Source of the DNA: Quercus robur
Taxonomy: Eukaryota; Streptophyta; Magnoliopsida; Fagales; Fagaceae
Assembly: GCF_932294415.1 (NCBI RefSeq)
Contig: NC_065535.1
Span: 26,128,782 to 26,192,781 of the forward strand
Direction: 5' to 3'
Length of the DNA: 64,000 nt
Shown: piece by piece, positions 20,322 to 59,700 of the stretch
Position numbering within the stretch: position 1 is the first letter of the stretch
Layout of the letters: each line of letters opens with the position of its first letter
Made by a program: the position numbers and the translations under genes
The notes under the pieces: model-generated
What the model was told of the DNA's origin: nothing
Database searches by the model: none
Seen by the model: only the letters and a program-made list of their open reading frames with translations

Positions 20322-20953
20322 AAAAAATCTTCTCTAATGAACCCCCTAATTGGCCCATTATTCAATAGGATTTTATTAATGTGTGCCCCTAATTGGCCAA
20401 TTATTTAATAGAATTTTACTAATGTGTGCCCCCTAATATAAAGTTTAATATGTGCCCTAAGGGCACACATTAACCGAACTCTATTTAATATACTCCAAAA
20501 CTTATTAGGGCACACATTAACTGGATTCTATTTAATATACTCCAAAACTTATTTATACACATACATACATACCAGTCCAAGTCTGGGCTGGTGAAGCTGC
20601 ACTTTTTTGACCACATTCCCATTATATTATGATTCATGAACATGAACCGTGATCTACTTGTTTCTTTGTGGAAAAAGTTCAAAGCGCATATATTTTTTCA
20701 CAACTTCTTACTATAATTGTACTGAAAAAATCCTCTCTAATGAGCCCCCTAATTGGCCCATTATTTAATATACTCCAAAACTTATTTATACACATACATA
20801 CATACCAGTCCAAGTCTGGCCTGGTGGAGCTGCACTTTTTTGACCACATTCCCATTATATTATGATTCATGAACATGAACCGTGACCAACTTGTTTCTTT
20901 GTGGGAAAAGTTCAAAGCGCACAAATTTTTTCACAACTTTTTATTATAATTGT
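20322..20953. repeat. Tandem duplication with an inserted inverted-repeat block
   Basis: Copy 1 (20322-20722) and copy 2 (20723-20953) match closely, including the shared string ACATACATACATACCAG and a stretch around 20580-20690 / 20816-20920. Copy 1 has about 170 extra bases (about 20369-20538). Their ends are inverted repeats, with TTAATGTGTGCCC at one end and GGGCACACATTAA at the other. The extra block has the build of a small inverted-repeat transposable element. Confidence 0.75.
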
Positions 20954-21802
20954 AACGTGACAGAGTGTGATTGGTGAAGAAAAAAATAGTAAATTTATGT
21001 ATAAATAATAGTTAATCGTTTACAGTATATCACATCAAAATTATGATAAAAAAATTAAAAAATAATTTGTGGTCTTAAAACTTCTCTGACTAGAAATTAT
21101 CTATGTTTTGGTGGTGGGCTCCATTAGTAAAGTGAGGCTAATGGTGTGGGGGGACTGAGAGAGCAAACGGTTAGAATAATGGACAGCCAATTTGTCATTT
21201 TTCTGTGGTCAAGTAAAAACAAAAACAAAAGGGAGATTCTTCTATTGGATAGCTTTGTGTTTTGATTGGAGCGTGTTTTCTACGAGTGGCTGTTAGTCTT
21301 TGTGACATGATATATAATAATAATATTTATAAAGTTTCTATATTTTCTTTTTCTTTTATACTTTTTTTTAGTAGTAATATAATATAATAATAATGATTAC
21401 ATACACACACCTACATTTTATACTGAGGCAATAAATTTAATGAAATACCATAAATGAAGCGGCAAAAGCAAGCCAAAAGAAGACACCTTTGAGTATTGAC
21501 TTTATTGACTGTCTTGTTGTTTTCTTTATCAAATATCAACTTTCAATTTTGAAAGATGCAAAACTGGATCTTGCCGTTTAGTACACTCTGATACTTTCCA
21601 ACCTCTTTCTCTCGAGGTATGTAAATAGTGGAACGGATATATGTATCAGAAATTCTTTTCAAAGTACAGGTAGCAAGGTTCGAATTAGGGAGCATATCTA
21701 GTTAAGCTCAGTACAAACATTTTGAGACCAAGAGTCCAACCAACTCAGCTAATCCTCGGGTTCAGAGGGTATTACATGCATTTGTTAAAAATAGTTATTT
21801 TT

Positions 21803-29278: not shown

Positions 29279-29904
29279 TGATAGGGATAAAAAATAGCAC
29301 TTATTCATGCAAGGCATAAAGCTGACGACTTTAAGATAAGCCATCAGGCATAAGCTGACGGGTATAGTTATAACCGTCAGCTTCCTCATATAGTAGTCAA
29401 CAACTGATGTTCTAGATTGAGAGAATGAGGGAAGTCTGCGAGACACACCTAAAGGCTGACGACATCAGCAAGACTGATGCCAGCAAGGCTGAAGGAAGTA
29501 AATAAGCCGACGACCCTGATGCATGTTTACTTGCTCCCCACGACTGCATATATAAGGAAATACCTTGCCCTCCACATTTGATACTACTCAAAGGATCCCT
29601 ATAAGGAAAGGATCCCGCCAAATACGCCCAAGAAGACTCCTATAAGGAAAAGACTTCCGCACCAAGGAAGAGACGTCAACCCCTTACTACTATAAAAGCC
29701 CCAATACCCTTATTAGCCAAGGTACGCATAATTTACCCTCTCTAGCACTCTAGAGTTGTGAGAATAATTCTAACTTGACATTCGGATGGTATTTAGCCGG
29801 CACCACACTGGTGCTCTCTGTTAGGTCTTCTCTTTTTGTTGTGCAGGTGCTATTTCGAGTGCGTGAGGACTGTGTGGCTTACTGGTGATTTTTTGGCTTC
29901 ATCA
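29279..29904 (+). repeat. Left LTR of the 8.2 kb gypsy element
   Basis: It starts TGATAGGGAT and ends CTTCATCA. It contains repeated GCTGACG motifs and a TATAAAAGCCCC promoter-like box at about 29691. The right LTR at 36889-37514 matches it over its full length. Confidence 0.9.
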
Positions 29905-29906
29905 GT

Positions 29907-29924
29907 TGGCGCCGTCTGTGGGAA
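29907..29924 (+). other. Primer binding site of the 8.2 kb element
   Basis: TGGCGCCGTCTGTGGGAA lies two bases after the left LTR. This is a common primer site among plant Ty3/gypsy elements. The same 18 bases occur, on the other strand, in the 4.5 kb element at 53223-53240. Confidence 0.8.
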
Positions 29925-29959
29925 GCATTTCATATTATCGCTTCTCGGACAAAAGAGTT

Positions 29960-31230
29960 GCATGGTGCTCACTCGCTCAATGGCAACCACTAACGACGTT
30001 CAAAAAGAAGAACCACCCACGACCGCCCTCGAGAGACAGGTTAAAACTCTCGCTGCTGCCGTGGAACGCCTCACCAAACAAAATCGCGACCTGGAGGAGC
30101 AGCTGCGCTAGAAAAACGCAGCATCGGATAACCAAGGAGCAGATCATGAAGGAACCAGCGTTGAAAGAAGGAATCAAGAGGGACCACAGGCCAGTAACGC
30201 CCTAAGCAGACTGGAGCAACAAAACGTGAGCCTCCCCTCCCTCGTGGATATGGCTCCACCACCTATTATCGCGAAGATGCAGGCAATGAAGGAACATATG
30301 GAAGTTATGATGAACTCTCTCAAGGGACGAGTGTCCAGCGATCTTAACGACCTTGTTAACCAAACTGACTAGCCCTTCATCGCCTTTGTCAACTCCTTCC
30401 CCCTGCCGAGTAAGTTCCGCATGCCATAGATAGATAGTTACGACAGGGTCAAGGACCCTTTAAATCACCTAGAGACCTTTAAGACCTTGATGTACCTTCA
30501 AAGAGTAGCAGATGAGATCATGTGTAGGGCCTTCCCTACAATGCTGAAGGGTGAGGCAAGAATTTGGTTTAGCCAGCTGACGCCCAACTCCGTCAGCACC
30601 TTCAAGGAGTTAAGCGCTTAATTTATTGCGCACTTCATCGGGGGACATAGGTACAAGAAGTCTACAGCTTGCTTGATGAGCATCAAGTAGCGAGAGGAGG
30701 AGACGTTGAGATCCTACATATCCCGTTTCAATAAAGAGGCACTCTCGATCGACGAAGCCGACGACAAGATAATTGTAGCGGCATTCACTAATGGGCTGAA
30801 GAAGGGTAATTTTTTGTTCTCCCTGTACAAGAACGACCTGAAGACCATGTCAAAGGTGCTTTACAGAGCCACCAAATACATGAACGCTGAAAACGCGCTG
30901 CTGGCCCGAGAAGAAAAACCCAAGAAAAGGGAGAGGCAAGAAGACACACGGCAGGACCAAGGCCGGAAGAAGGCAAGGACAGGAGATCGAAGGAATGAAA
31001 GGCGCCCTAAGCCCCTGGGAGGAAGATTCACAAGTTTCACTCCATTAATTGCCCAGATAGATCAAGTCCTAATGCAAATCAAGGATGAAGGGGCTCTGAC
31101 GTTCCTTGGAAAGCTGAAGGGTGATCCCAACAAACGATCTAGGGATAAATTTTACCGCTTCCATCGTGACCATGGTCACGACACGGCCGATTGCTATGAC
31201 CTAAAGCAGCAGGAGTCGCAAGCGTAGTCA
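29960..31230 (+). pseudogene. Gag-like region of the 8.2 kb element (fossil)
   Basis: The region begins with a short coiled-coil-like stretch (ERQVKTLAAAVERLTKQN) and continues with residues typical of plant gypsy gag, including an Arg/Lys-rich segment and a short motif with HRDHGHDTADCYDLK. It is broken and not expected to make a functional protein. Confidence 0.7.
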
Positions 31231-31289
31231 TTTACTGCGACTCTCAAGTCGTCGCTAACCAAGTAAATGGAGACTATGAGTGCAAAGGC

Positions 31290-32744
31290 GAAAGGATGAA
31301 GAGGTACCTTGATCAATTAAGGACAAGAGTAGACGACCTAGAGGCCAAAATCGTCCAAATCCCCAGAGGAGAAAATGAGAAAGCTGATCGTCTTGCCAAG
31401 GCCGCTTCAGCAGAACATATGATTATCCCTGGTAATGTACTCTCTTTTGTTCAGCTTTCTCCACTAATAGTTTCCAGCGACATATAGGAGATAGGCTCTG
31501 AAAGTAACTGGACCGCACTGTTAGTTTCATACTTAAAAAACGGAGTCTTGCCAGATGGAAAGGAGGCTACGAGAAAGCTAAAGGTCCAAGCGGTGAGATT
31601 CGTCTTGATAAGAGATGTCCTGTACAAAAGAGGCTTCTCCCGTCCATATCTGAGATGCTTAGGTACGGAAGAGGCAGACTACGTCCTGAGGGAGGTACAC
31701 GAGGGGATTTGCGGAAACCATTCAAGGTCAAAGTCATTGGTACACAAGCTCGTGCGAGCAGGGTACTATTGGCCCACCATGCAGAAAGATGCCGAGGCTT
31801 ACGTTAAGATCTGTAACAAATGCCAAAGGTTCAGCAATATTACTAGACAACCAACTGAAGAGTTAACCCCGATGACGCCCCTATGGCTGTTCACTCAGTG
31901 GGGGTTAGATATTATGGGACCATTCCCTACAACATTACGACAACTAAAATTCCTGGTAGTAGGCATTGACTACTTTACAAAGTGGGTGGAAGCTGAAGCC
32001 TTGGCCACCATCACGGAGAAGAACGTGCGGAGTTTCGTCTGGAAATGCATTGTGTGCAGGTTTGGCATCCCAAGAGTCTTAGTCTCGGATAACGGGAAGC
32101 AATTCGACAACGACTCCTTTCGGGACTTTTGCTCACAGTTAGGGATATGAAACCACTACTCTTCCCCTGCTCACCCTTAGGCTAACGGGCAAGTCAAAGT
32201 CACGAACTGATCCTTGCTCAAAATTATCAAGAGTCGGCTCGAAGGGGCGAAGGGTATATGGCCTGAAGAGTTGCCAAGCATACTGTGGGCATACAGGACC
32301 ACGGTAAGGACACCCACAGGAGAAACACTGTTCCAACTAACATACGGGAGCAAGGCAGTCATCCCGACCGAAATTAGACGCACAAGCTACAGGGTACACA
32401 ACCATAACGAAAGCAAGAACAATGAGGCCATACGACTACAACTCGACCTTGTGGACGAAGTCAGAGTGATGGTAAAACAAAGGCTCGCAAGGTACTAGGA
32501 CCGAATGGCCAAGCATTACAACTCCCGGGTCCGACACAGAAATTTCCAGGTTGGGGATCTCGTTCTCAGGAAAGTCATGGACACTGTTAGAGACCCTACC
32601 CAAGGGAAGCTCGGCCCCAATTGGGAAGGACCTTTCCGAATCACGGCATGGCAAAGGAAAGACACTTACCACCTGGAGAAGTTAGACGGACAGAAGCTGC
32701 AGCATTCGTGGAACGCCGAGCACTTACGGAAGTATTACCAGTAG
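31290..32744 (+). pseudogene. RNase H/integrase-like region of the 8.2 kb element (fossil)
   Basis: It shows an RNase H-like end (IPRGENEKADRLAKAAS), an integrase zinc-binding part (HEGICGNHSRSK, then CNKCQRF), a catalytic-core-like part (LDIMGPFP, then VSDNGKQFD) and a C-terminal GDLVLRKV segment. It is broken. The usual protease and reverse transcriptase domains that should precede it are not seen. Confidence 0.75.
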
Positions 32745-33111
32745 GGATGATAGCGTGAAGACCAACCCTTTTTTTTTTTTTTACTTTTAGTTATACTCCT
32801 TAGTTTTATCATTTACTTTAGCTTTCGCAATAATACCTCTTTTCCATTTTAAGCCCAAAGGGCAGGATTTGATTTTCGAACTATTTTTATTTACAAATGC
32901 ATGGCAATAAGAGGAGTTTATTCAAAAATTGCTGAAGTTCCTATTTTACAAGTCCACAAGAATGGACAGTTTGAAGTTCACAAAAGTGGACGATTAAGTT
33001 CACAAAAGTGAACGACTAAAGTAGACGGCCAAGTCCACAAAAATAGACAGTTTAAAGTTCACAAAAATGGACGACTAAGTTCACAAAAGTGGACGACTAA
33101 AGTAGGCGGCT

Positions 33112-33595
33112 AAGTCCATAGCATAGACGGAAGCTAAAAGCTGACGGTCTCACCAAATGGATGAGACCATCATAAAACCAACAAGCTTACAAAAATGAAA
33201 GGTCATTAAGTCCATAGCATGGACGGAAGCTAAAAACTGACGGTCTCACCAAATGGATGTGACCATCATAAAACCATCGGGCCTACAAAAATGAAAGGTC
33301 ATTAAGTCCATAGCATGGACGGAAGCTATAAGCTGACAGTCTCACCAAATGGATGAGACCATCATAAAACCAACGAGCCTACAAAAATGAAAGGTCATTA
33401 AGCCCATAGCATGGATGGAAGCTAAAAGCAGACGGTCCCACCAAATGGATGAGACCATCATAAAACCAACAGGTCTACAAAAATGAAAGGTCATTAAGTC
33501 CATAGCATGGACAGAAGCCAAAAAGCTGATGGTCTCACCAAATGGATGAGACCATCATAAAACTAATGGGCTTACATTATGTCCATAAAATGACT
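33112..33595 (+). repeat. Five tandem repeats of about 96 bases in the 8.2 kb element
   Basis: Units start near 33112, 33207, 33302, 33399 and 33494. Each contains TAAGTCCATAGCATGGACGG, then GACGGTCTCACCAAATGG and ATGAGACCATCATAAAACC. Shorter GTCCACAAAAGTGGACGA-like repeats precede them at about 32950-33110. Tandem blocks between integrase and the 3' LTR are known in Tat/Ogre-type elements. Confidence 0.85.
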
Positions 33596-34153
33596 GAAAG
33601 TTAGAAAGCTGACGGTCACATTAAAGTAAGTGAGATTGTAAAAGTAATGTCTATTGATAGACGTGGCTGTAAAGCCGATGGGCTACCAAAAGCGACGGAA
33701 TCATTAAACACCTGACATGGATAAAACTACAAAGCTGACGGGCCTAGAAAAAACGTTCCTTACAAAACGAACAAGGTCATAAAGTTAGCAACATAATCAA
33801 ATATCCAAAGGCAAAGCTCGTAAAACCGACGAGATTATCAAACTCAAAAGGATGAGATGGACGGGCTCATAAGTCATACGAAGCCTATATCAACAGATTT
33901 TTTGAACAAGTCCACCCCTAAAAAACTGACGGGTTTCCCAAAACAGATGGGATTACGACTAAGGACTTCGCCTAGCACAATCACTAATTGAAAAATATAT
34001 AAAGACGACGGGAATAACATGCCACGTAACAAAATAAACTGTATACAAATGAAAGCCTAAAAACCAAAGGGGCACTTAAATAATTGTTTGCAAAGTAATT
34101 GAAATACACATTAAACGATTGTTTGCAAAATAATTGAAATACAAATAAAGAAA

Positions 34154-36440
34154 CTAAGTAGCAGGAGTGTCAGCAGGGTTCCTGTCATCTTTCTGATTTT
34201 CAACATCTATGAACACAGTTGGAGAGTTGGAAGCAGGAGTAGGGGGAGGATTGGCAGCAGGTTGGGCGAGAACAACGACACCGTTATCCTTTGGAGGAGG
34301 ATTGGACTCAGGGGAGCCGTCACCTTCATTGTCCATTGTAATTCCGAATAAGTCCAGCTCTGGGAAAACTGACGCAACTTGTTTGAGGCAAACATCAAAC
34401 CCAGTGCCATAATACTCAGCATAAGAGTCAATGAATGATTGCGACGCTTTAAATTCTTGAACGGCGTCAGTCCCAGCCGTCTCCACCCTTTCACTCAGAG
34501 CCGTCACCTCCTACTGTAGCTTTTCCTTCTGACGGTCAGCCTCCTTTAGCTTCCCCCTGACTTCCTTCAGCTCATTATTTAGCGTGCAGACAGCCTCCTT
34601 GTATTGCCCCTGTTCATTCATCAAATTTGCATTGTGTTTCCGGACCCGGGTGCCGACCCCCTCCTTGGCAACACAACGATCTTGAAGGGCCTTGACACGC
34701 ACCAAGGCTTGAGAAAAGAACACAGGCGTCAGTCAAAGTAAATCAAAACGAAATGAAACCAATTTGACCAAAAGACAGCAAACATACCCTAGTAAGATCA
34801 AAAAGAGCTGACGCCCCTAAGTCCTCTGTCCCCAACAAGTCGCAAGGCCCTGTATTCGTTGGCTTTATGAAGGACCTAACCTCCCCGACGGCATAGTCGT
34901 TGTGGGTCAAGAGGCAACATGAGCCCTCGATGACAGGACCCGAGGAAGTCATTACCCCCTTGCCTGCACTGTGGCTTGGCTTAAGGGGAGATTTCCCCTT
35001 TGGAGAAATGTCCCCAGGAGTGACAGCAGCCTTCTTGGATGGACGGTTGTCACTCCCGTCGGGTTTCCTTTTTGAAGCCTTGGTGACGGTCTTGGGGGTT
35101 GACGAGGTTCCGCTCTCTTCCTCCTTTGCTTTCTTTTCCTCTTTTTTGCGGGCTACAGCAGCCTTCACCCTTTGCCTAGCAGATTCCATCTTTGCACAAA
35201 GTAACTAACAATTATTACAACAGACGGGAAGGAAAAGCTGACGAAAGCAATAAAGAGTTTACTCACGTCGGCGAGAGAAATCGTCCAATCTCCGAGCGAA
35301 ATCGTCCAATCTCCGAGCTTCAGCTGACGGCTCTGGACCCCCGCAGTATAAATGAAGAGTGTCTAGGGTAATTAAGTCCCTACACTTTCGTTCCTCCAAA
35401 GGGATTTCAAGAACCCGACGGATGAATGCCTCTTGCTCGACGGTTATATATGGACGGCTACAGGCTGAAGAGGCAAAAGTGAAGACGTTAAAAAACTAAA
35501 TGGAGTAATAAAAGGATAAAAAGTTGACGGTAAATCAAAAGCTGTCAAAACCTGAAGGTTTAACTAATGCCCAGGTATTATCAAAACCATGAGGCATGGT
35601 AGCCCACTCTTCTGGACGGCATACCCAGTCAGATCTCTCAAGGAAAAAATATCTACTTTTCTAACTCTTGTTGGAATCTGGCATGTCAAATACAAGCCTT
35701 AAGTCCTTTTCCCTGACGGAGAAATGGTAAGTCCCTTTGGACGAAACAATCTAACGGGGCTTGTAGCAATAGAAGAACTCGTCTAGAGAAAGCTGACGAT
35801 TCCCACCACTCAGACGGCCCCACAAAACCTCAGCCCCAATAAAAGTCCTCCAAGCATTGGGGGCAATCTGTCTGACGGATATCCCTATAAAATCCACAAG
35901 CTGACGGTGCAAAGCCGTCAGTGGCAGCCTCAATTCGGCAGAAAGCATGGCATTATACATGCCGACGTCTGCAGTCCTCACTGTATAACACTTTTCCTTT
36001 TTCCTAGGGAGACGGATTGAAATGTGGTCTGGGATTTGGAAACGGGTATGTAATTCTTTGAAAACCTTCTCACTCATTTTGGGCAAAAACTTGTTTACGG
36101 CCCAATCCTCGGGAAGGATGAAGGAACGGTTTCCTCCGGGACTTACTGAAGCCTCTTCATAGGACTCCTCGTTACCATCATCCTCTTCCTCATCTCCGTC
36201 ACTCTCTCGCTCCTCTTCAACCTCACCTAATACTTTCTCTCCAACTCCCTCAACATAGTCTTCTATGTCGTCGCTAGGAGACTAGGCTGACATTTCCCTT
36301 CCTGACGACTCAGAAAAGACGTTGGACTCTTGACCTGAGCCAAAAACGTCGTCGTAGCTCGCTCCATTGCGGACTGACGACTGGTCACTCGACGCGTCAC
36401 TTGACATCTGACTACCTACAAGTGACGGATCCATTCTAAG
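34154..36440 (-). pseudogene. Antisense accessory ORF region of the 8.2 kb element (fossil)
   Basis: On the strand opposite to gag-pol, several open stretches encode hydrophilic sequence, among them one with RFQIPDHISIRLPRKKEK and WRTFIGAEVLWGRLSGG. Extra antisense ORFs at this position, downstream of integrase, are a known trait of Tat-lineage gypsy elements. Their function is not established. The region is broken here. Confidence 0.6.
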
Positions 36441-36660
36441 TACCTAAACTGACGTCCTCACTAAGAAATTGTTCAGCTAGATCAAAAATGCAAATATAAA
36501 GAAGGGAAGAGAACTTACAAGTAAATAAGTCTTGGAGGAGAAGACGGCCTAGAAAGTGACGGTGTTGGCAACAGATGACGGATCAGCAAAAGCAGAAGCA
36601 ACGAGTTCTCTCTTGAAATATTAGCAAGGTTGAAATAGAGAAATGAGGAGAAGGATGCGT

Positions 36661-36672
36661 GTTATATATAGG
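36661..36672 (-). promoter_or_regulatory. Antisense TATA-like site ahead of the accessory ORF region
   Basis: On the minus strand CCTATATATAAC lies about 220 bases inside the 3' LTR and about 230 bases ahead of the accessory ORF region, in otherwise GC-richer DNA. The placement suits a promoter that serves the antisense ORF. It is inferred from motif and position only. Confidence 0.4.
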
Positions 36673-36888
36673 AAGAGGAATGTGCAGAAGGCGAGGCGAC
36701 GCCTTTGTCGAGAAACGAGGCCAACGGGAGCACGCCACGTGTCCAAGCATTAAATGGATGGCGGCTCGAGGAGTCACTCATAAATGATTTTCCCGCTTGT
36801 CTGAACCAAAAGATAGTTAACTGATAAAAAAAACTTAACTCTACATCCCGTCAGTCTAAAATGGCGAGGATGTAGAGTAGGGGGCAGC

Positions 36889-37514
36889 TGATAGGGATAA
36901 AAAATAGCACTTATTCATGCAAGGCATAAAGCTGACGGCTTTAAGATAAGCCATCAGGCATAAGCTGATGGGTATAGTTATAACCGTCAGCTTCCTCATA
37001 TAGTAGTCAACAACTGATATTCTAGATTGAGGGAATGAGGGAAGTCTGCGAGACATACCTAAAGGCTGAAACATCAGCAAGACTAACGCCAGCAAGGCTG
37101 AAGGAAGTAAATAAGCCGATGACCCTGATGCATGTTTACTTGCTCCCCACGACTACATATATAAGGAAATACCTTGCCCTCCACGTTTGATACTACTCAA
37201 AGGATCCCTATAAAGAAAGGATCCCGCCAAATACGCTCAAGAAGACTCTTATAAAGAAAAGACTTCCGCACCAAGGAAGAGATGTCAACCCCTTACTACT
37301 ATAAAAACCCCAATACCCTCATTAGCCAAGGTACGCATAATTTACCCTCTCTAGCACTTTAGAGTTGTGAGAATAATTCTAACTTGACATTCGGAGGGTA
37401 TTTGGCCGGCACCACATCGGTGCTCTCTGTTAGGTCTTCTCTTTTTGTTGTGCAGGTGCTATTTCGAGTGCGTGAGGACTGTGTGGCTTACTAGTGATTT
37501 TTTCGGCATTATCA
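36889..37514 (+). repeat. Right LTR of the 8.2 kb gypsy element
   Basis: Full-length partner of 29279-29904. Most differences between the two are C/T or G/A changes, the pattern expected of decay at methylated cytosines. It is followed by the CATAG target duplicate. Confidence 0.9.
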
Positions 37515-42958: not shown

Positions 42959-43284
42959 CAAAGGGCATGACTCCATTAAGTTTGCTTGGGCGCCCCTTTA
43001 TCATAGTTCTCTTTTGTGTGTGTGTTTATTATAGCTAATTTAATGAGGCTGTTACTTACATTTGTAAGACTTTCTTATGAAGTATCTAATTAATGCAGTT
43101 CATAAATGAAGCGAAAATTGAATAAAGGTAGTAACTTAAAATTCATGAATTACAAAGATAAATACATGTATGTCTCGTCAGTTACTGCTTTTGAACTTTA
43201 AAATTAAAAACAATTTATTTGGATTGATTCCAAATTTCATCAAGTGTCTTATAATAACAGTGGATCATCGGTTTTGGTGACAGG

Positions 43285-44976
43285 ATGATAAAGGGTGATT
43301 GTAATATCTGCGTCTTTAAATCTTTCAATGGACTTGTTGCAATTAGCTCATTGATATCCTTTCTTTCGGCCATGGCATTGGGATATTTATATTTGTTTCC
43401 AAGATTTCAACTGGTCAAACGTAGTAGTTATGGAATTCCTGGTTCTAATGTGTCTAATGGTACATGCAATGTCTTTGAAGGAAGTTGGATCTATGATAAA
43501 AATTACCCTTTATATGATGCCTCAAAATGTCCATTTGTGGAGCGTGGATTTAATTGCTTGGCTAATGGCCGGAAAGATGGGGGTTATGCAAAATGGAGGT
43601 GGAAGCCAAAGAACTGTGATATTCCAAGGTTCGATGCACGTATAATTCTCGAAAAGTTTCGTGGCAAAAGAGTGGTATTTGTGGGTGATTCGTTGAGTAG
43701 AACACAGTGGGAGTCTTTAATATGTTTGCTTATGACTGGGGTGGAGGATAAGAACACTGTATATGAAGTCAAAGGGCATAAGATCACCAAAAATATCAGG
43801 TTTTTAGGGGTACTGTTCAGTTCGTTCAATCTTAGAATTGACTTCTATCGATCAGTTTTTTTGGTGCAGCATGGTCCTGCACCAAGGCTTTCACCCAAGT
43901 GGGTGAAGACAGCACTTAGACTTGATAAGTTGGATGACATTAGCCATGAGTGGATTGATTCTGATGTTCTCATATTTAATTCGGGGCACTGGTGGACAAA
44001 GAGTAGACTATTTCATGAAATGTAAGTTGTTTCTTTCTTTAAAATTCTGAGATTTGATTTAAATAGATTCTGTTTTTTGTATTACTTGTCAATGATTTTG
44101 GTATGCATTCCAATGGCAATCATAGTGGCTTCAGAAGAGTATGTTTTAACATTAGATCCTCATTATTCATTAAAGCTTTTTGCTTTTGCAATCAACAACT
44201 CACATTTTAGGAAGCTTATAAAGCATGCTCCTAGCTAACATGTTTCCAGACAGGCGCTGCTATTTTCAGGTGGGTAATTCACTGAATCTTGCAATGCCAG
44301 TCATTACTGGCTTCAAAAGAGCATTAGAGACTTGGGCATCTTGGGCTGAGACTATGATCAACACAAATAGAACAAGGGTATTCTTCCGGACTTTTGAATC
44401 AACCCATTGGAGGTGTGTTAATGTTTAATCAGTCATTATTTTTGCAGCCAATTTCATTCATACTAACAATAAGTTTAGATACACAACATTTTTCACAATT
44501 AATGAGGTAACAAATTGTTAATATACCAAATAAAAATTAATAACCTACTACCTCAATAAATTGTGAAAAAATTCTCTCTAACATTACTCTTACACTTGTA
44601 TGCTTATTATTCATCATTGTCATATATTTGTCTCCAAAAAACTTGCAAATAAACGTGTCCTCAAAACTTGACTGCTAGTGGTGGTTTTATCTTTATTGTC
44701 AGTGGTAAGAAATGGAATACCTGCAAAGTGACTCAACGTCCTTGGTCAAAAACTAATGGAAGAGAACGAAGCAGTGTTTCAGAAATCATAATTAAAGTTG
44801 TGAAGAAAATGAGAATTCCTGTAACACTTATGCATGTTACGCCAATGTGTGCATTTCGTAGTGATGGACATGTAGGCAGGTGGAGTGACAACCCAAATGT
44901 GCCAGATTGTAGCCACTGGTGTCTACCTGGTGTACCTGATACATGGAATGAAATTCTATTATCATTGCTGTTGTAG
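43285..44976 (+). CDS. TBL8-11-type PC-esterase (DUF231), copy A
   Basis: A trichome birefringence-like protein; the family O-acetylates wall polysaccharides in the Golgi. Exons are 43285-44021, 44254-44412 and 44703-44976, GT-AG and in frame, 389 aa. A membrane anchor lies at about residues 15-36 (VAISSLISFLSAMALGYLYLF). The TBL domain starts at CNVFEGSWIYDKNYPLYDAS. The GDS motif (VVFVGDSLSRTQWESL) has Ser136, and the DxxH motif (DCSHWCLPGVPDTW) has Asp367 and His370, so the catalytic residues are present. It is about 50 residues shorter at the N terminus than copy B, and homology upstream ends at about 43258. At the start of exon 2, Gly of the usual MG-YFQ is Arg (MRCYFQ). Introns are short (232 and 290 bases). 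The upstream frame is stopped, so the start at 43285 is the first possible. Confidence 0.83.
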
Positions 44977-49186: not shown

Positions 49187-50400
49187 GAGATGTTCTTGCT
49201 TAGGCGAACGAGCTTTATCATTGTAGTCTTCTTGGCTTCTATGTTAGGTGTTATGTAGGTACAAAAAATTTAAAAATTTAGATAGGACACATGGCATAAA
49301 ATTAGACATCTAATTTATAATCTAATTGGATTATTTCTCAGTTTTGACTTTAAATAGATAATATGTTAGAATGATATCTGTAGGGACACGATTTTTAACG
49401 ACCCAAGAATGACATTGGGCTCGCATGTAAAAGGCTCGAACAATATAATTCATAGAGAGTGGGCTAGAAAGGCTGGACCTTGGTCGTTGGACGGCGGTTT
49501 AGTCGTGATTTTCATGGAAGCTCATACGAAGATAGGCTTGGCCAAAATAACTAGGCTTCACATCGGTGTAGCTCGGAGGGTTTGAGTCCTCGGACTGAGT
49601 CCGAGGAGCATCACATTCTTCCCATTCTTCTTTTTGTGGGATCTTTTTTCCTCCCCCCTTCTCCCTTGGCTCTCCTCCCCTTTTATACCAGTGTTTACTT
49701 CTCGTTTTTCTGTCTACGAGTCAATTTTGCCTTTTTGGGGTATTGACTCGTCCTATCAATTCATACGTCAGAGTGGTTGGGGGTGGTTGGGAAAAGTTAA
49801 ATAGCATGGTCTGGAATATGGGCTTGTCAGACGCAGGGCTCCACATTACGGTGTTGGTAGCTTTCTCCCTTGTACTGCTCTTGTACTGAGTTTGTCCTTT
49901 TCTTCAGGCGTTTTGTGAGGTGTAGAGCGTGAGATCGTCCTCGACCACATCCTTGGGCCTTTGAGGGGCTTTCATCATACGTCCTCGGCAGTAGGGCTCC
50001 TCGGCTTGGGCTTTGGGCCCTTAATACAAAGTGGGTTGGGACCTCAGATTTCGGGCCCCACAATAACCACTCAAAATCCTACTGCCCAGCCTTGTTGTTG
50101 GGGAGGAGGGTTTTGGTAATGTTAGGCCCAAACCATGGCTTGTCCAGCTCAACATTTCTTTAATGCCAGGGTTTCTTCGTTTGCATGGGGGGCGGCGCTA
50201 AATTGTGAGACATCCCTTTAGATTTTCTCACGCGGCGCCTTTGACGTTGCAGTGTTCAAGGCGTGCCATTAATATGTCTCCTTCACGAGGCTATCCAAAC
50301 TTTATGGTTGCAGGCGGCGCAGGGAGCTGAGCAAAGACTATCTCGTTCGTAGCATTTCTTGGGAACATGCCTAGATTAAATGCCACCGGTTTGCCCTCTG

Positions 50401-50409
50401 TATAAGTAG
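50401..50409 (+). promoter_or_regulatory. Antisense TATA-like site in the 4.5 kb element
   Basis: TATAAGTAG lies on the strand opposite to the element, about 340 bases inside its 3' LTR. An ATG-led frame of 62 codons starts at 50520 and an AATAAA-like signal (AATAAAAG) at about 51066. The layout resembles a small antisense transcription unit. No protein family is recognised. Confidence 0.3.
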
Positions 50410-51424
50410 GATAGGGGGTTAATCCTCCTACATATAAACCCTTCGGCCCCATCCCAATTCATAATCCTTCCGCCATACTCAGAATCTCCATCTCCAGTGC
50501 CATCCACCCTTAGAGCAATATGTTTGAGGCATGGGTGGGGATGAAAGATCTATACCCGCTTCAGAGGCACCGAATCCTTCCAAGACTTAAGGTGTTGCGG
50601 TCTGGACAGGGAAGACACAGACTCAAGATGATCTTTCGCTTTGATAAGGTAGGGATGGTATCTCTGCCTCTTTCAGTCAAAATCCGAAATAGGCACTGTT
50701 CGCATTAGATTCTTGGTGCGTTAGAAGTAAGGTTTTCCGTCATCAGCGCCGTTTGCTTTATTGCAGGCGTGGCTAACATGGAGGCTCATCAACTTCCGGC
50801 TCCCTGCACCTTTTCTTCAACGGTGCTAGCCTCAAGTTGGGCTCCCTACACCTTTTCTTCAACGGTGCTAGCCCCAAGTTGGGTTCTTTTGCTGCCTGAG
50901 TTATAGACATGTAAAAGTATTGAGGAATGGTCTCCTTAGACAACATTTTGGAACTGCAGCATCCCTCTTTTCTGCCTTGTATCTTTTCTTTTCACTTATG
51001 CAGTTAGTTTTTAGTATAAACTTATTCAAGTTCTTTCGTTGTACGTTGTACTATTTCTTTGTCCTAATAAAAGATGAATTTGTTTCCTTCTAAATACTTT
51101 TCTTTTCTGCGGCAATTACTTTGTGAATGGGTAAGCTACATGTGTATTTTTCTTTAATAATACTTAGGACAGGAAACCTTGTAACAAAAAGCTACTAATT
51201 TGAATCTATTGAAACTATCAAATATAATAATATCAATCAATAGCAGATTAAACTTATGAGGCTAACCGAGATAACAACTGAGTGTACTGTGACGCGTGTG
51301 AGGTAGTTGCCCGAGAATGAGAAACCCCAAATAAACCATTCGAGAAGGTTGCCGAATAGTGTGGAACTTGGGCCGTGTTTTCGATAACAGCTGGCCTCTA
51401 ATCCGAGGACCTAGGTATGATTGT

Positions 51425-52990
51425 ACCGGGTTGTCTAGAACTTGTATTCTTTCTTTTAGGTAGTTGGTTTCTCCATAGGCTTGAGTCCAAGGACCATGCA
51501 AGACCTTGGTTTTGTCCAAAACTTGTATTTTTTCTTTTAAGTAGTTGGTTTCCCCATAGGCTTGAGTCCGAGGACCATGCAAGACCTTGGTTCTGTCCAA
51601 AACTTGTAGTTTTTTCTTTTAAGTAGTTGGTTTCCCCATAGGCTTGAGTCCGAGGACCATGCAAGACCTTGGTTCTGTCCAAAACTTGTAGTTTTTCTTT
51701 GTAGTGGTTGGTTTCCCCATAGGCTTGAGTCCGAGGACCATGCAAGACCTTGGTTCTGTCCAAAACTTGTAGTTTTTCTTTGTAGTAGTTGGTTTCCCCA
51801 TAGGCTTGAGTCCGAGGACCATACAAGACCTTGGTTCTATCCAAAACTTGTATTTTTTCTTTTAAGTAGTTGGTTTCCCCATAGGCTTGAGTCCGAGGAT
51901 CATGCAAGGTCTTGGTTCTGTCCAAAACTTGTAGTTTTTCTTTGTAGTAGTTGGTTTCCCCATAGGCTTGAGTCCGAGGACCATACAAGGCCTTGGTTCT
52001 ATCCAAAACTTGTAGTTTTTCTTTTAAGTAGTTGGTTTCACCATAGGCTTGAGTCTGAGGATCATGCAAGGCCTTGGTTCTGTCCAAAACTTGTAGTTTT
52101 TCTTTGTAGTAGTTGGTTTCCCCATAGGCTTGAGTCCGAGGACCATACAAGGCCTTGGTTCTGTCCAAAACTTGTATTTTTTCTTTTAAGTAGTTGGTTT
52201 CCCATAGGCTTGAGTCCGAGGACCATGCAAGACCTTGGTTCTGTCCAAAACTTGTAGTTTTTTCTTTTAAGTAGTTGGTTTCCCCATAGGCTTGAGTCCG
52301 AGGACCATGCAAGACCTTGGTTCTGTCCAAAACTTGTAGTTTTTCTTTGTAGTAGTTGGTTTCCCCATAGGCTTGAGTCCGAGGACCATGCAAGGCCTTG
52401 GTTCTGTCCAAAACTTGTAGTTTTTCTTTGTAGTAGTTGGTTTCCCCATAGGCTTGAGTCCGAGGACCATACAAGACCTTGGTTCTGTCCAAAACTTGTA
52501 TTTTTTCTTTTAAGTAATTAGTTTCCCCATAGGCTTGAGTCCGAGGACCATGCAAGGCCTTGGTTCTATCCAAAACTTGTATTTTTTCTTTTAAGTAGTT
52601 GGTTTCCCCATAAGCTTGAGTCCGAGGACCATACAAGGCCTTGGTTCTGTCCAAAACTTGTATTTTTTTCTTTTAAGTAGTTGGTTTCCCCATAGGCTTA
52701 AGTCCGAGGACCTTACAAGACCTTGGTTCTGTCCAAAACTTGTATTTTTTCTTTTAAGTAGTTGGTTTCCCCATAGGCTTGAGTCCGAGGACCATGCAAG
52801 GCCTTGGTTCTGTCCAAAACTTGTATTTTTTTCTTTTAAGTAGTTGGTTTCCCCATAGGCTTGAGTCCGAGGACCATGCAAGGCCTTGGTTCTGTCCAAA
52901 ACTTGTAGTTTTTCTTTGTAGTAGTTGGTTTCCCCATAGGCTTGAGTCCGAGGACCATACAAGGCCTTGGTTCTGTCCAAAACTTGTATT
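51425..52990 (-). repeat. Array of nineteen 81-bp repeats, in-frame 27-codon period
   Basis: The unit on the + strand contains GTAGTTGGTTTCCCCATAGG, CTTGAGTCCGAGGACCATG and CCTTGGTTCTGTCCAAAACT. I count nineteen copies of the GGCTTGAGTCC core between 51478 and 52935, spaced 81 bases apart in most cases. On the minus strand, the sense strand of the element, 81 bases is exactly 27 codons with no stop (DRTKALHGPRTQAYGETNY, then LKEKIQVL), so long open frames result. Two unit types alternate (LKEKIQVL and YKEKLQVL). A few units of 80 or 82 bases shift the frame. Confidence 0.92.
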
Positions 52991-53947
52991 TATTTACTTA
53001 TTTATTTACTTTTCGAAGGTTAGCCCCTCGACCAAGGTGGGGAGAGTTAGCTTGATGTTGGAAGCCTCTAGAGCTGCCCGTGCCATCGGCACTGTAGGCG
53101 TAGCCCCTAACGGAAATTTATGTCTGAGCAACAACTGCATGTCGCTAGAAATGGAGGAACCTTTGCAGACCTCTGCTTGATAGGGGCTCGACTCCATCGC
53201 CACCTGCGCCAACGCGCAAGCCTTCCCACAGACGGCGCCAATTGTAGGGACACGATTTTTAACAACCCAAGAATGACATTGGGCTTGCATGTAAAAGGCC
53301 CGAACAATATAATTCATAGAGAGTGGGCTAAAAAGGTTGGACCTTGGTCGTTGGACGGCGGTTTAGTCGTGATTTTCATGGAAGCTCATACGAAGATAGG
53401 CTTGGCCAGAATAACTAGGCTTCACATCGGTGTAGCTCGGAGGGTTTGAGTCCTCGCACTGAGTCCGAGGAGCATCACATTCTTCCCATTCTTCTTTTTG
53501 TGGGATCTTTTTTCCTCCCCCCTTCTCTCCTAGCTCTCCTTCCCTTTTATACTAGTGTTTACTTCTCGTTTTTTCTGTCTACGTGTCAGTTTTGCCTTTT
53601 TGGGGTATTGACTCGTCCTATCAATTCATACATCAGAGTGGTTGGGGGTGGTTGGGAAAAGTTAAATAGCATGGTCTGGAATATGAGCTTGTCAGACGCA
53701 GGGCTCCACATTACGGTGTTGGCAGCTTTCTCTCTTGTACTGCTCTTGTATTGAGTTTGTCCTTTTCTTCAGGCGTTTTGTGAGGTGTAGAGCGTGAGAT
53801 CGTCCTCGGCCACATCATTGGGCCTTTGAGGGGCTTTCATCATACGTCCTCGGCAGTAGGGCTCCTCGGCTTGGGCTTTGGGCCCTTAATACAAAGTGGG
53901 CTGGGACCTCAGATTTCGGGCCCCACAATATCCTATAAAAAATTTTG

Positions 53948-56096: not shown

Positions 56097-56780
56097 CTAT
56101 TTGTTTATAAAAATATTGATCCGATAAAATTTCGACGCGTTTCAATCTCACATATCTCGAACTCATTTGATTACACTCAATCTTTCCATTTCTCTGTAGA
56201 TTCTAGAACATCACCGACAAGATTCAAACGTTAATTAAAAGCTTTTGGTATACACTTTTTTTTGGCTAAAAGCTTTTGGTATACACTTAAAACTTAAAAA
56301 AAAGTACAGTTGTTAAAATTAGTTCAGAAATCATTGTCCAAATCTAACTGAGAAACTAAGCAAGGAAGCTGGTATTACAAGCAAAGGCAGTATTTAACTA
56401 AATTGACCAAAACCACCTTCAAACTTCATCCACACTCCTCTTTGTACTTTGCTCATCCAGATGCAAGTTTTTTCCTTAGTTCCCCAGTTGCTGAAACAGT
56501 AAGATTACTGCTTTACTTTTTGAGCTTTATGGGTCTTCAACTTCACAATCTTTGGTCTTGATTTGATTTTATTCTGGTTAAAGTTGTCGTTCTGTGTTCT
56601 GCTGAAGTGTGTCCCTTTCTATGTTTCAAGTGCTTAAATCTTTGGTCTTGATTTGATCTTGTTATGGTTAAGTTGGCACTTAAATGTCTGTTTCACTTTT
56701 AAAGTTTTATCTGTGTGGGTATTTTCAGTTAACATGGATGGATTTTTAATGTGGGATTACTTCATTTTTCTGATCGGTTT

Positions 56781-59700
56781 ATGATTAAATCTGTGAGTAG
56801 TTTGTGGGGTGTTCAAAAGATGGAGATAGTGAGTAAGTTCAACTGGGACACATTTGGCCATTTCAGGCATTTCTACCTAAGGGGTTTCAGTTTTGGTGAT
56901 AGAATGATAAAGGGTCCTTGTCAAATTTGGATCTTTGTATCCTTCAATACACTTTTTGCAACTGGCTCATTGATATTCTTCCTTTCAGCCATGTTATTTG
57001 GATATATGTATTTGTTTCCCACTTATAGCCCAGTCATCAATAGTTATGGGATTTCTGAGTCCATTGTTTCTAATGGCACATGCAATGTTTTAAATGGAAG
57101 TTGGATCCAAGATGAAAGTTACCCTCTATATGATGCCTCAAGATGTCCATTTGCAGAACATGGATTTAATTGCTTGGCGAATGGGCGGAAAGATAAAGGT
57201 TATGCAAAGTGGAGGTGGAAGCCAAAGAATTGTGATATTCAAAGATTCAATGCGCGAGCAATTCTTGAAAAGCTTCGTGGAAAACGAGTGGTTTTTGTGG
57301 GTGATTCATTGAGTAGAACACAATGGGAGTCATTGATATGTATGCTTATGACAGGGGTAGAGGATAAGAGGGATGTATATGAAGTCAATGGCCAAAAGAT
57401 CACTAAACGGATTAGGTTTTTAAGTGTAAGATTCAGTTCATTCAATTTAAATATTGACTTTTATCGATCGGTGTTCCTGGTACAGCCTGGTCCTGTGCCA
57501 AGGCATGCACCAAAGAGGGTGAAGACAACACTAAGACTCGATAAGATGGACAGTATCAGCAAAGAGTGGATTGATTCTGATGTTCTCATATTTAATTCAG
57601 GACACTGGTGGACAAGGACCAAGCTTTTTCAAATGTAAGTTACCTAATATCCTCAGCATCGATGGCATTAAATCTTACTAAAAGAACGTATTTCAATTAT
57701 GATTTTTGTAAGCATTCTGATGCCAGCAACCTCTTAAGCCTTTTATATATGTGCATATGTGCATTCTACAATAATATGATACATTGACCTTTCATTTCTG
57801 TCTTAATTTAATTAATTTCAGTTACTAGTGATTTTTCATGTATCTTGCTTCATCCATAATTGATTTCAAATTCATGTAACAGCATAACATAAAGCCTGTT
57901 GTGCATTTTCATCATAATGAACTCATCTTAGAATCTTAGAGCCTTTCGTGGGTAAAAACCTTGGTAGTCAGGTGTCCAGGAAGGCTTCAAGTTGGGCTGG
58001 CAGTTCTACTTTGGGATTTTCTTACATAGAGAGAATATCTCAAAATTTTCTTGTACAATTTAAGTAACCAATACCTAAAGCTTAAAGAGTCTTGTTGAGA
58101 ATTATTGATGCTAGATGAGTCTGTTACGCCAATAAAAAAAACTCAATTGTAATTCCAATTTAGGCCATTCTCTGAATGTCTAGTACTTAGCTGCCATTGT
58201 AAGGAACTTCTGTTTAATGAACTGGATGGTTGGAGTAAAGGCCTGAGAGCATCAATCCAAAGTTCCAAACATGTATCATTGTTATAACATTGAAAAGGAT
58301 GGATCTTTGAAAAGCATCCATTTAGCATTACCCCAACTGATTATCATTATTGTCAATGACCAAGAAGCCAGTTATTCATTTGTAATTGGTTACTTTTTGC
58401 ATCTTGGCGGTCAAGGATAGAGGTGCTAGAATGTATTTGTAGCCTCTTTGGTCGTTGGGTCTTTAGACTGCACTTTTTCTTGGCATATAAAATCACTATT
58501 CATAACATATTTTTAAGTGTTACATGAACATGGTCACTTATTATTCAGTTTTGGTGGCTATTTCAGTATATTTTTGTTTGTTATTAATTTTTGGGCTATT
58601 CTGTGTATAGGTGCTCACATGCACAGAGAGGCTGGGGCTTGGGTTTAGGGCTATAAGAAGAAATAGTTCTTAAAATTTCATAGGAAAGGGGAATCATAAT
58701 CTTGTAGATAGAGACATTCTTCATTGTAGAGGTAGGCACAATATTAAACCCAATAATATATTCGCACTTAACTTCACTATATCTCAAAGTAGGAATGATT
58801 TTAGTAGAGCATTTTTAGAAGGAGATAAGATATATCTGACTTGGATTCAGCATGCATAATACGAGGTCAGTCATTTATTATTTTAGAAAAGACCTGTGAC
58901 TCCAATCTTAGTGCTCCCCTAAATTGAACTACCCTTGAGCAATTCTCCCCATCCCCTCCCTTATTTTTACCCAGTCTAATACAGGTATTCATTTTGTTCA
59001 GTTAAAATATGCTTGAGAAAGGGTCTTTGCTTCTGCATTACCTTCCTTTCCATAGCTGAACAAATTATTTGAATGATTTTTCTTTATAAACATATTATTA
59101 GATCTCCATCAAACTTTTCATGAATTTGTCATATAAAGCTTTCAGCTCAATCTTTTGTAATTAAGTTTGTTCTTTTCATAAATGCATATAATATGTAGAA
59201 TGCTTCTAACATGTTTCCAGACAGGGGCTGGTATTTTCAGGTTGGTAATTCACTGAAGCTTGGAATGCCACTGACTACGGCCTTTGGCAAAGCATTAGAC
59301 ACTTGGGCATCTTGGGTTGAGACTATGGTCAACAGCAATAGAACCAGTGTATTCTTCCGGACTTTTGAATCTTCCCATTGGAGGTGTGTTGCATAGTTGG
59401 TCACTGTATTTGCTGCCAATTTTATGTTAATAACTTTTTTGTTTTTTGGGGGCCAACATGTTAATAGCCTTTTTGAGGTTGGCATAGAAAGTGAATTTTC
59501 AGTCATATCTATATTCCATGAATCTATAACCTTTCACCTAGTTTGCTTGTCTTTAGCACAAAATGATTGTTTGATTGTTAGGATGTGATTGTTACTTAGG
59601 AATTTGGGATAGAAATTATTAATATCCGAGGATTTGTGAAAATTTGATAGTTCGTTTGGCAGAATTTTTGAGAATTTCTATTTAAATGAACATCTCCATT

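Follow-up and report, generated by a model that had tools for sequence, protein, structure and literature searches.

A tandem array of 81-bp units, probably noncoding, inside a gutted LTR element of Quercus robur

Tandem arrays are a common feature of Tat-lineage plant LTR retrotransposons and can give rise to satellites (PMC7004042). The same paper cites the hypothesis that such arrays stem from illegitimate recombination or from abnormal strand transfer as the element replicates. In the Retand/Tat lineage an array in the internal region is described as frequent, not universal (PMC11963269). Non-autonomous members of Tat/Retand systems are known, and the copy number of the array is reported to vary between copies (PMC7004042; Macas et al. 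2009 as cited there). Plant LTR elements also capture pieces of host genes, and maize Bs1 is an example (PMC13317346).

We analysed an LTR element in a stretch of 64,000 nucleotides from Quercus robur (contig NC_065535.1, hereafter the window). This element contains an internal tandem array, the frequent Retand/Tat feature. Its likeness to the Tat/Retand elements (PMC7004042; Macas et al. 2009 as cited there) lies in an internal array with a unit of less than 100 bp in a Ty3/gypsy-like element. In contrast to those elements, gag-pol is missing here, Transposase_28 is unmatched in the scanned pieces, and the array lies near the primer-binding site, a position that follows from the missing gag-pol. 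The array fits the Tat-lineage class of arrays. Coffea Gypsy/TAT elements reportedly carry an 82-bp tandem repeat. Unit length and kind of element are similar, but 82 bp is not divisible by 3. For this single copy, we consider the 81-bp array to be most likely a noncoding tandem array of the Tat/Retand kind inside a gutted plant LTR retrotransposon.

An LTR element with an internal array

The element is bounded by two LTRs of 684-685 bp (Table 1), which share 96.66% identity over 688 BLAST columns and differ by 19 transitions and 3 transversions (K2P 0.033). Both have TG...CA ends, and both carry the TATAAAAGG box, a TATA box, on the minus strand. The primer-binding-site-like stretch matches positions 29907-29925 at 19 of 19 bases. 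These positions directly follow the left LTR of a second LTR element in the window, and the stretch is taken as a putative primer-binding site. No clear polypurine tract was seen by eye in the 80 bases before the 3' LTR. The LTRs, the target duplication, the primer-binding-site-like stretch and the TATA box together set the element sense as minus. The 424-codon stretch considered below is therefore on the sense strand.

Table 1. Features of the element and its array, in window coordinates
Feature	Position	Strand	Basis
Target-site duplication ATATC, left copy	49374..49378	.	Read from sequence
3' LTR (element sense minus)	49379..50062	-	BLAST against 53243-53927; TG...CA ends
RWP-RK domain fragment (PF02042), probable host-gene capture	50776..50991	-	Pfam
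42-bp direct duplication inside RWP-RK fragment	50798..50883	-	Tandem Repeats Finder, 2.0 copies, 95% matches
424-codon stop-free stretch, judged not a gene	51401..52672	-	ORF scan, frame nulls, substitution test
Candidate remnant of one further decayed unit, TCCGAGGACC on plus strand	51402..51411	-	Read from sequence, no statistic
Tandem array, 81-bp unit, 19.2 copies	51432..52991	-	Tandem Repeats Finder and core spacings
Leader between primer-binding site and array	52992..53221	-	Position only
Primer-binding-site-like stretch, two bases inside from 5' LTR	53222..53240	-	Identity to second element
5' LTR, with TATAAAAGG box on minus strand	53243..53927	-	BLAST; sequence reading
Target-site duplication ATATC, right copy	53928..53932	.	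Read from sequence

A preliminary description of this DNA had called the element non-autonomous. With LTRs and the ATATC duplication present, this description stands: Pfam scans of 14 among its stop-free pieces brought up neither a gag nor a pol domain. The same 14 pieces gave no match to reverse transcriptase and, on both strands, none to Transposase_28. Because reverse transcriptase is lacking and Transposase_28 is unmatched in these pieces, we do not claim Retand membership. The lineage of the element is thus unplaced, which counts against our own reading. The leader region (53009-53242) had no Pfam match, two pieces searched against NCBIfam gave 0 matches, and an exact 20-mer scan of viral contigs also gave 0. 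Rfam (gathering threshold) and ARAGORN over the 64-kb window returned 0 and 0. A 103-codon ATG-initiated ORF (53006-53317, minus strand) spans the end of the 5' LTR, the primer-binding site and the leader, and has no significant Pfam match. On the antisense strand, TATA-like stretches lie approximately 340-370 bases inward of the 3' LTR (50396-50440, plus strand); they may be the remains of an antisense promoter or may have arisen by chance.

The array itself was found by Tandem Repeats Finder with 94% matches. It holds 19 of the 21 GGCTTGAGTCC matches in the window, 16 of them exact and 3 with one mismatch. Shuffled windows contain a mean of 0.75 and a maximum of 4 such matches (100 shuffles), and the array is far beyond chance. 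Nineteen 81-bp repeats had been claimed for this locus, and both the 19 cores and the copy number in Table 1 bear this out. The claim of an exact 27-codon period fared less well. The spacing between cores is usually 81 bp (13 of 18), but it is 82 bp in 4 cases and 80 bp in 1, so that 5 of 18 lengths depart from exactness. The alignment traces these odd lengths to single-base changes within or beside one-base runs. The candidate remnant of a further unit is offset by 3 bases from the array register.

These features can be arranged in one pathway. A Tat/Retand-type Ty3/gypsy element would have lost gag-pol by deletion to give the present one, and the tandem-repeat region that was kept would be the one found between pol and the 3' LTR in complete relatives. 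Abnormal strand transfer in the course of reverse transcription may have raised the number of units, together with the exchange of multi-unit blocks. The element would have been mobilised by the proteins of another element. Point mutation and slippage by single bases would now be eroding the present copy. The open frame of the array would be a matter of arithmetic, given a unit with few stop triplets whose usual length is a multiple of 3.

The second LTR element (29279-37514; LTRs 95.5% identical) permits a comparison within the window. On its plus strand, which agrees with a primer-binding site placed after its left LTR, RVT_3, Integrase_H2C2 and rve score above the Pfam cutoff and Retrotrans_gag below it; the scanned pieces contain no reverse transcriptase domain. 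Two arrays at 32949-33563, 81 bp x 2.1 and 96 bp x 4.7, the former with 22-bp subrepeats, sit after the pol pieces and before antisense ORFs. Those ORFs, which lie beyond the arrays, gave one Transposase_28 match below cutoff (E 0.0054). Judged from these domains, the second element is probably Retand-like and is incomplete too. Apart from the primer-binding site, the two elements share no long similarity, and the best 30 matches of a protein-level comparison between them reached at most 22.3 bits.

All four counted spacings of the 96-bp array are 96. The consensus units of both the 81- and the 96-bp array of the second element are closed in six of six frames, and so a period divisible by 3 can occur without coding sense. 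Among the Tandem Repeats Finder rows in the window with a score of at least 80, which overlap in part, 8 of 16 have a period divisible by 3, somewhat more than one-third, which speaks against period lengths being fully random. Elsewhere in the window, a 233-bp unit is repeated 1.8 times with 95% matches (20529-20954). ORFs with PMR5N and PC-Esterase domains flank the first element on either side (43258-44022 and 56733-57635, both plus strand); these are likely neighbouring duplicates within one host gene family.

The open frame of the array

The sense strand had been described as open for more than 400 codons, and 424 codons without a stop are indeed present. This stretch contains no Met. It includes 15 recognisable unit-reads, 12 with the signature of one frame and 3 with that of another, because the single-base length changes shift the reading. 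Among the listed sense-strand ORFs of at least 40 codons, the longest one with an ATG start that is wholly contained in the array spans 67 codons, in a different frame.

How much openness a repeated 81-bp unit yields by itself can be estimated from random units. For the consensus unit, 3 of the 6 frames are open. Among random 81-base sequences (three models, 4000 sequences each), a fraction of 0.74-0.82 carries one open frame or more, and 0.10-0.20 carries three or more. Mock arrays were built from random units, to which substitutions and indels were applied as they occur among the 18 aligned units, and were compared with the observed run counted over whole units (398 codons). This run was reached in a fraction of 0.112 when the units were 81-mers from the window, and of 0.085 when they were shuffled consensus units (1500 trials each). 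The open length of the array is at the favourable end of the null, yet it is not exceptional.

The differences between units were then sorted by their effect on the proposed frame. The 18 variable columns comprise 5 synonymous changes (null mean 5.85), 11 non-synonymous changes and 2 that make a stop (null mean 1.41). The comparison of synonymous with non-synonymous change between units, which the preliminary description had put forward as a check, with equality of the two as a refuting outcome, thus reveals no excess of synonymous change and goes against selection for an open frame, with weak power at only 18 columns. No significant excess was found in the remaining five frames either, again with little power. 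Transitions account for 13 of the 18 columns; set against the consensus, 11 read as C-to-T or G-to-A. Neither of the two CG positions in the unit has been spared. Such C-to-T, G-to-A and CG changes form the pattern expected from the decay of methylated DNA, the direction of change here not being established.

Scored as whole proteins against Pfam, the stop-free stretches of the array exceed the curated thresholds of three families, namely DUF7817 (51.6 bits) and ATP-synt_ab_N (26.1 bits) on the minus strand and Suppressor_APC (32.7 bits) on the plus strand. No single stretch of any of the three is significant alone, and the two strands give unrelated families. We read these scores as summed weak matches over repetitive sequence and set the three identities aside.

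A hydrophilic protein of 27-residue repeats, with expansion kept in frame by selection, could also be proposed as the product of the array. The stop-free length on the sense strand, the 13 spacings of exactly 81 and the two minus-strand whole-protein scores speak for such a protein. Against it, five unit lengths break the frame, 3 of 15 unit-reads are off-frame, Met is absent (although the splicing-in of an upstream start is conceivable), synonymous changes are not in excess, and 9-11% of mock arrays are open for as long. On the frame breaks, the missing Met, the synonymous count and the open-length null, we reject the repeat-protein reading, to which we give almost no credence. The earlier description had allowed for either coincidence or selection. 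Coincidence is the part now favoured, with open frames as expected, frame-breaking lengths, no synonymous excess and no Met. We infer that no protein is made from the open frame of the array.

Growth of the array and origin of its unit

Two types of unit were said to interleave, and the alignment of 18 units agrees. Judged at columns 62-63, 7 units are Y-type and 11 are L-type; columns 52, 62 and 63 tell the types apart. Unit u7 combines them, being L-type with the Y-type base at column 52. Units 10-12 repeat units 2-4 with 0, 1 and 1 differences, and an 82-bp unit is common to both blocks. Three near-identical pairs in a row, all equally far apart, are unusual, since only 23 of 5000 shuffled unit orders gave a run as long. 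Neighbouring units differ at a mean of 4.82 columns (overall mean 4.76), and values no higher arose in 2895 of 5000 shuffled orders. Since adjacent units are no closer than random pairs, we rejected the idea that units arose mainly by slippage between neighbours. The recurring units, together with neighbours no more alike than random, point to growth of the array by exchange of blocks and not by simple slippage between neighbours. The history of unequal exchange, which had been thought readable from the unit types, can be read in part, where units 2-4 recur as units 10-12 with their shared 82-bp unit.

Between the array and the 3' LTR lies a sense-strand fragment of 72 residues that matches the RWP-RK domain (E 4.3e-10; 39.8 bits, cutoff 29.3). 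Its apparent continuation (RKLMSL) is in another frame (50724-50816, minus strand). The continuation alone has no Pfam match, and presumably resembles RKD-type proteins. The RWP-RK piece had 0 matches in the PDB. The fragment is probably a captured piece of a host gene, decaying and with apparent frame damage. It resembles maize Bs1-type elements in being a host gene fragment within an LTR element (PMC13317346), and differs in the piece concerned, here an RWP-RK domain that bears the 42-bp duplication and seems damaged in frame. For 12 of the 25 papers matched by a literature search, neither title nor abstract opening reports RWP-RK capture by a retrotransposon.

Two further explanations concern the role and the source of the unit. 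The array could have a cis-acting role for which it is retained, its units serving as binding or packaging sites repeated along the element RNA or DNA. It begins approximately 230 bases past the primer-binding site, in the part of LTR elements that holds leader signals. Two units were folded on both strands and compared with shuffles. One of the four folds exceeded its shuffles in stability by a modest margin (z -1.81), but the other three did not (z -0.96, -0.03 and 0.81), and the RNA structure of the unit in these folds gives no consistent signal. We consider a cis role unlikely.

The unit could also have come from outside any Tat/Retand array, either seeded by captured host sequence beside the RWP-RK fragment or brought in as a satellite piece from elsewhere. 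A stretch next to the RWP-RK match (50976-51010) scores 30 when aligned to the unit, a value reached by 0 of 200 shuffles and by 0 of 168 other window tiles. However, the best unrelated tile scores 29, and the aligned segment is short and A/T-rich with a 5-base gap. A 16-base match between unit and LTR scored 27, a value also reached by 6 of 340 unrelated tiles. An outside origin of either sort is, in our estimate, quite improbable. Its narrower form, in which the unit grew from the captured host sequence so that a transcription-factor gene region became a new tandem repeat, is more doubtful again. The unit-LTR alignment, which has one mismatch, had its score reached by 2 of 200 shuffles with the right LTR and by 0 of 200 with the left. 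We do not claim an LTR origin of the unit, as 6 of 340 unrelated window tiles score as high.

Consequences for reading arrays in plant LTR elements

An array with a period divisible by three easily imitates a long gene, given that 74-82% of random 81-mers have at least one open frame. Coding tests should target the unit rather than the array. This one copy shows an internal tandem array beside an apparent captured fragment of a regulatory gene. If the unit did originate at the RWP-RK side, that sequence would be a possible satellite seed.
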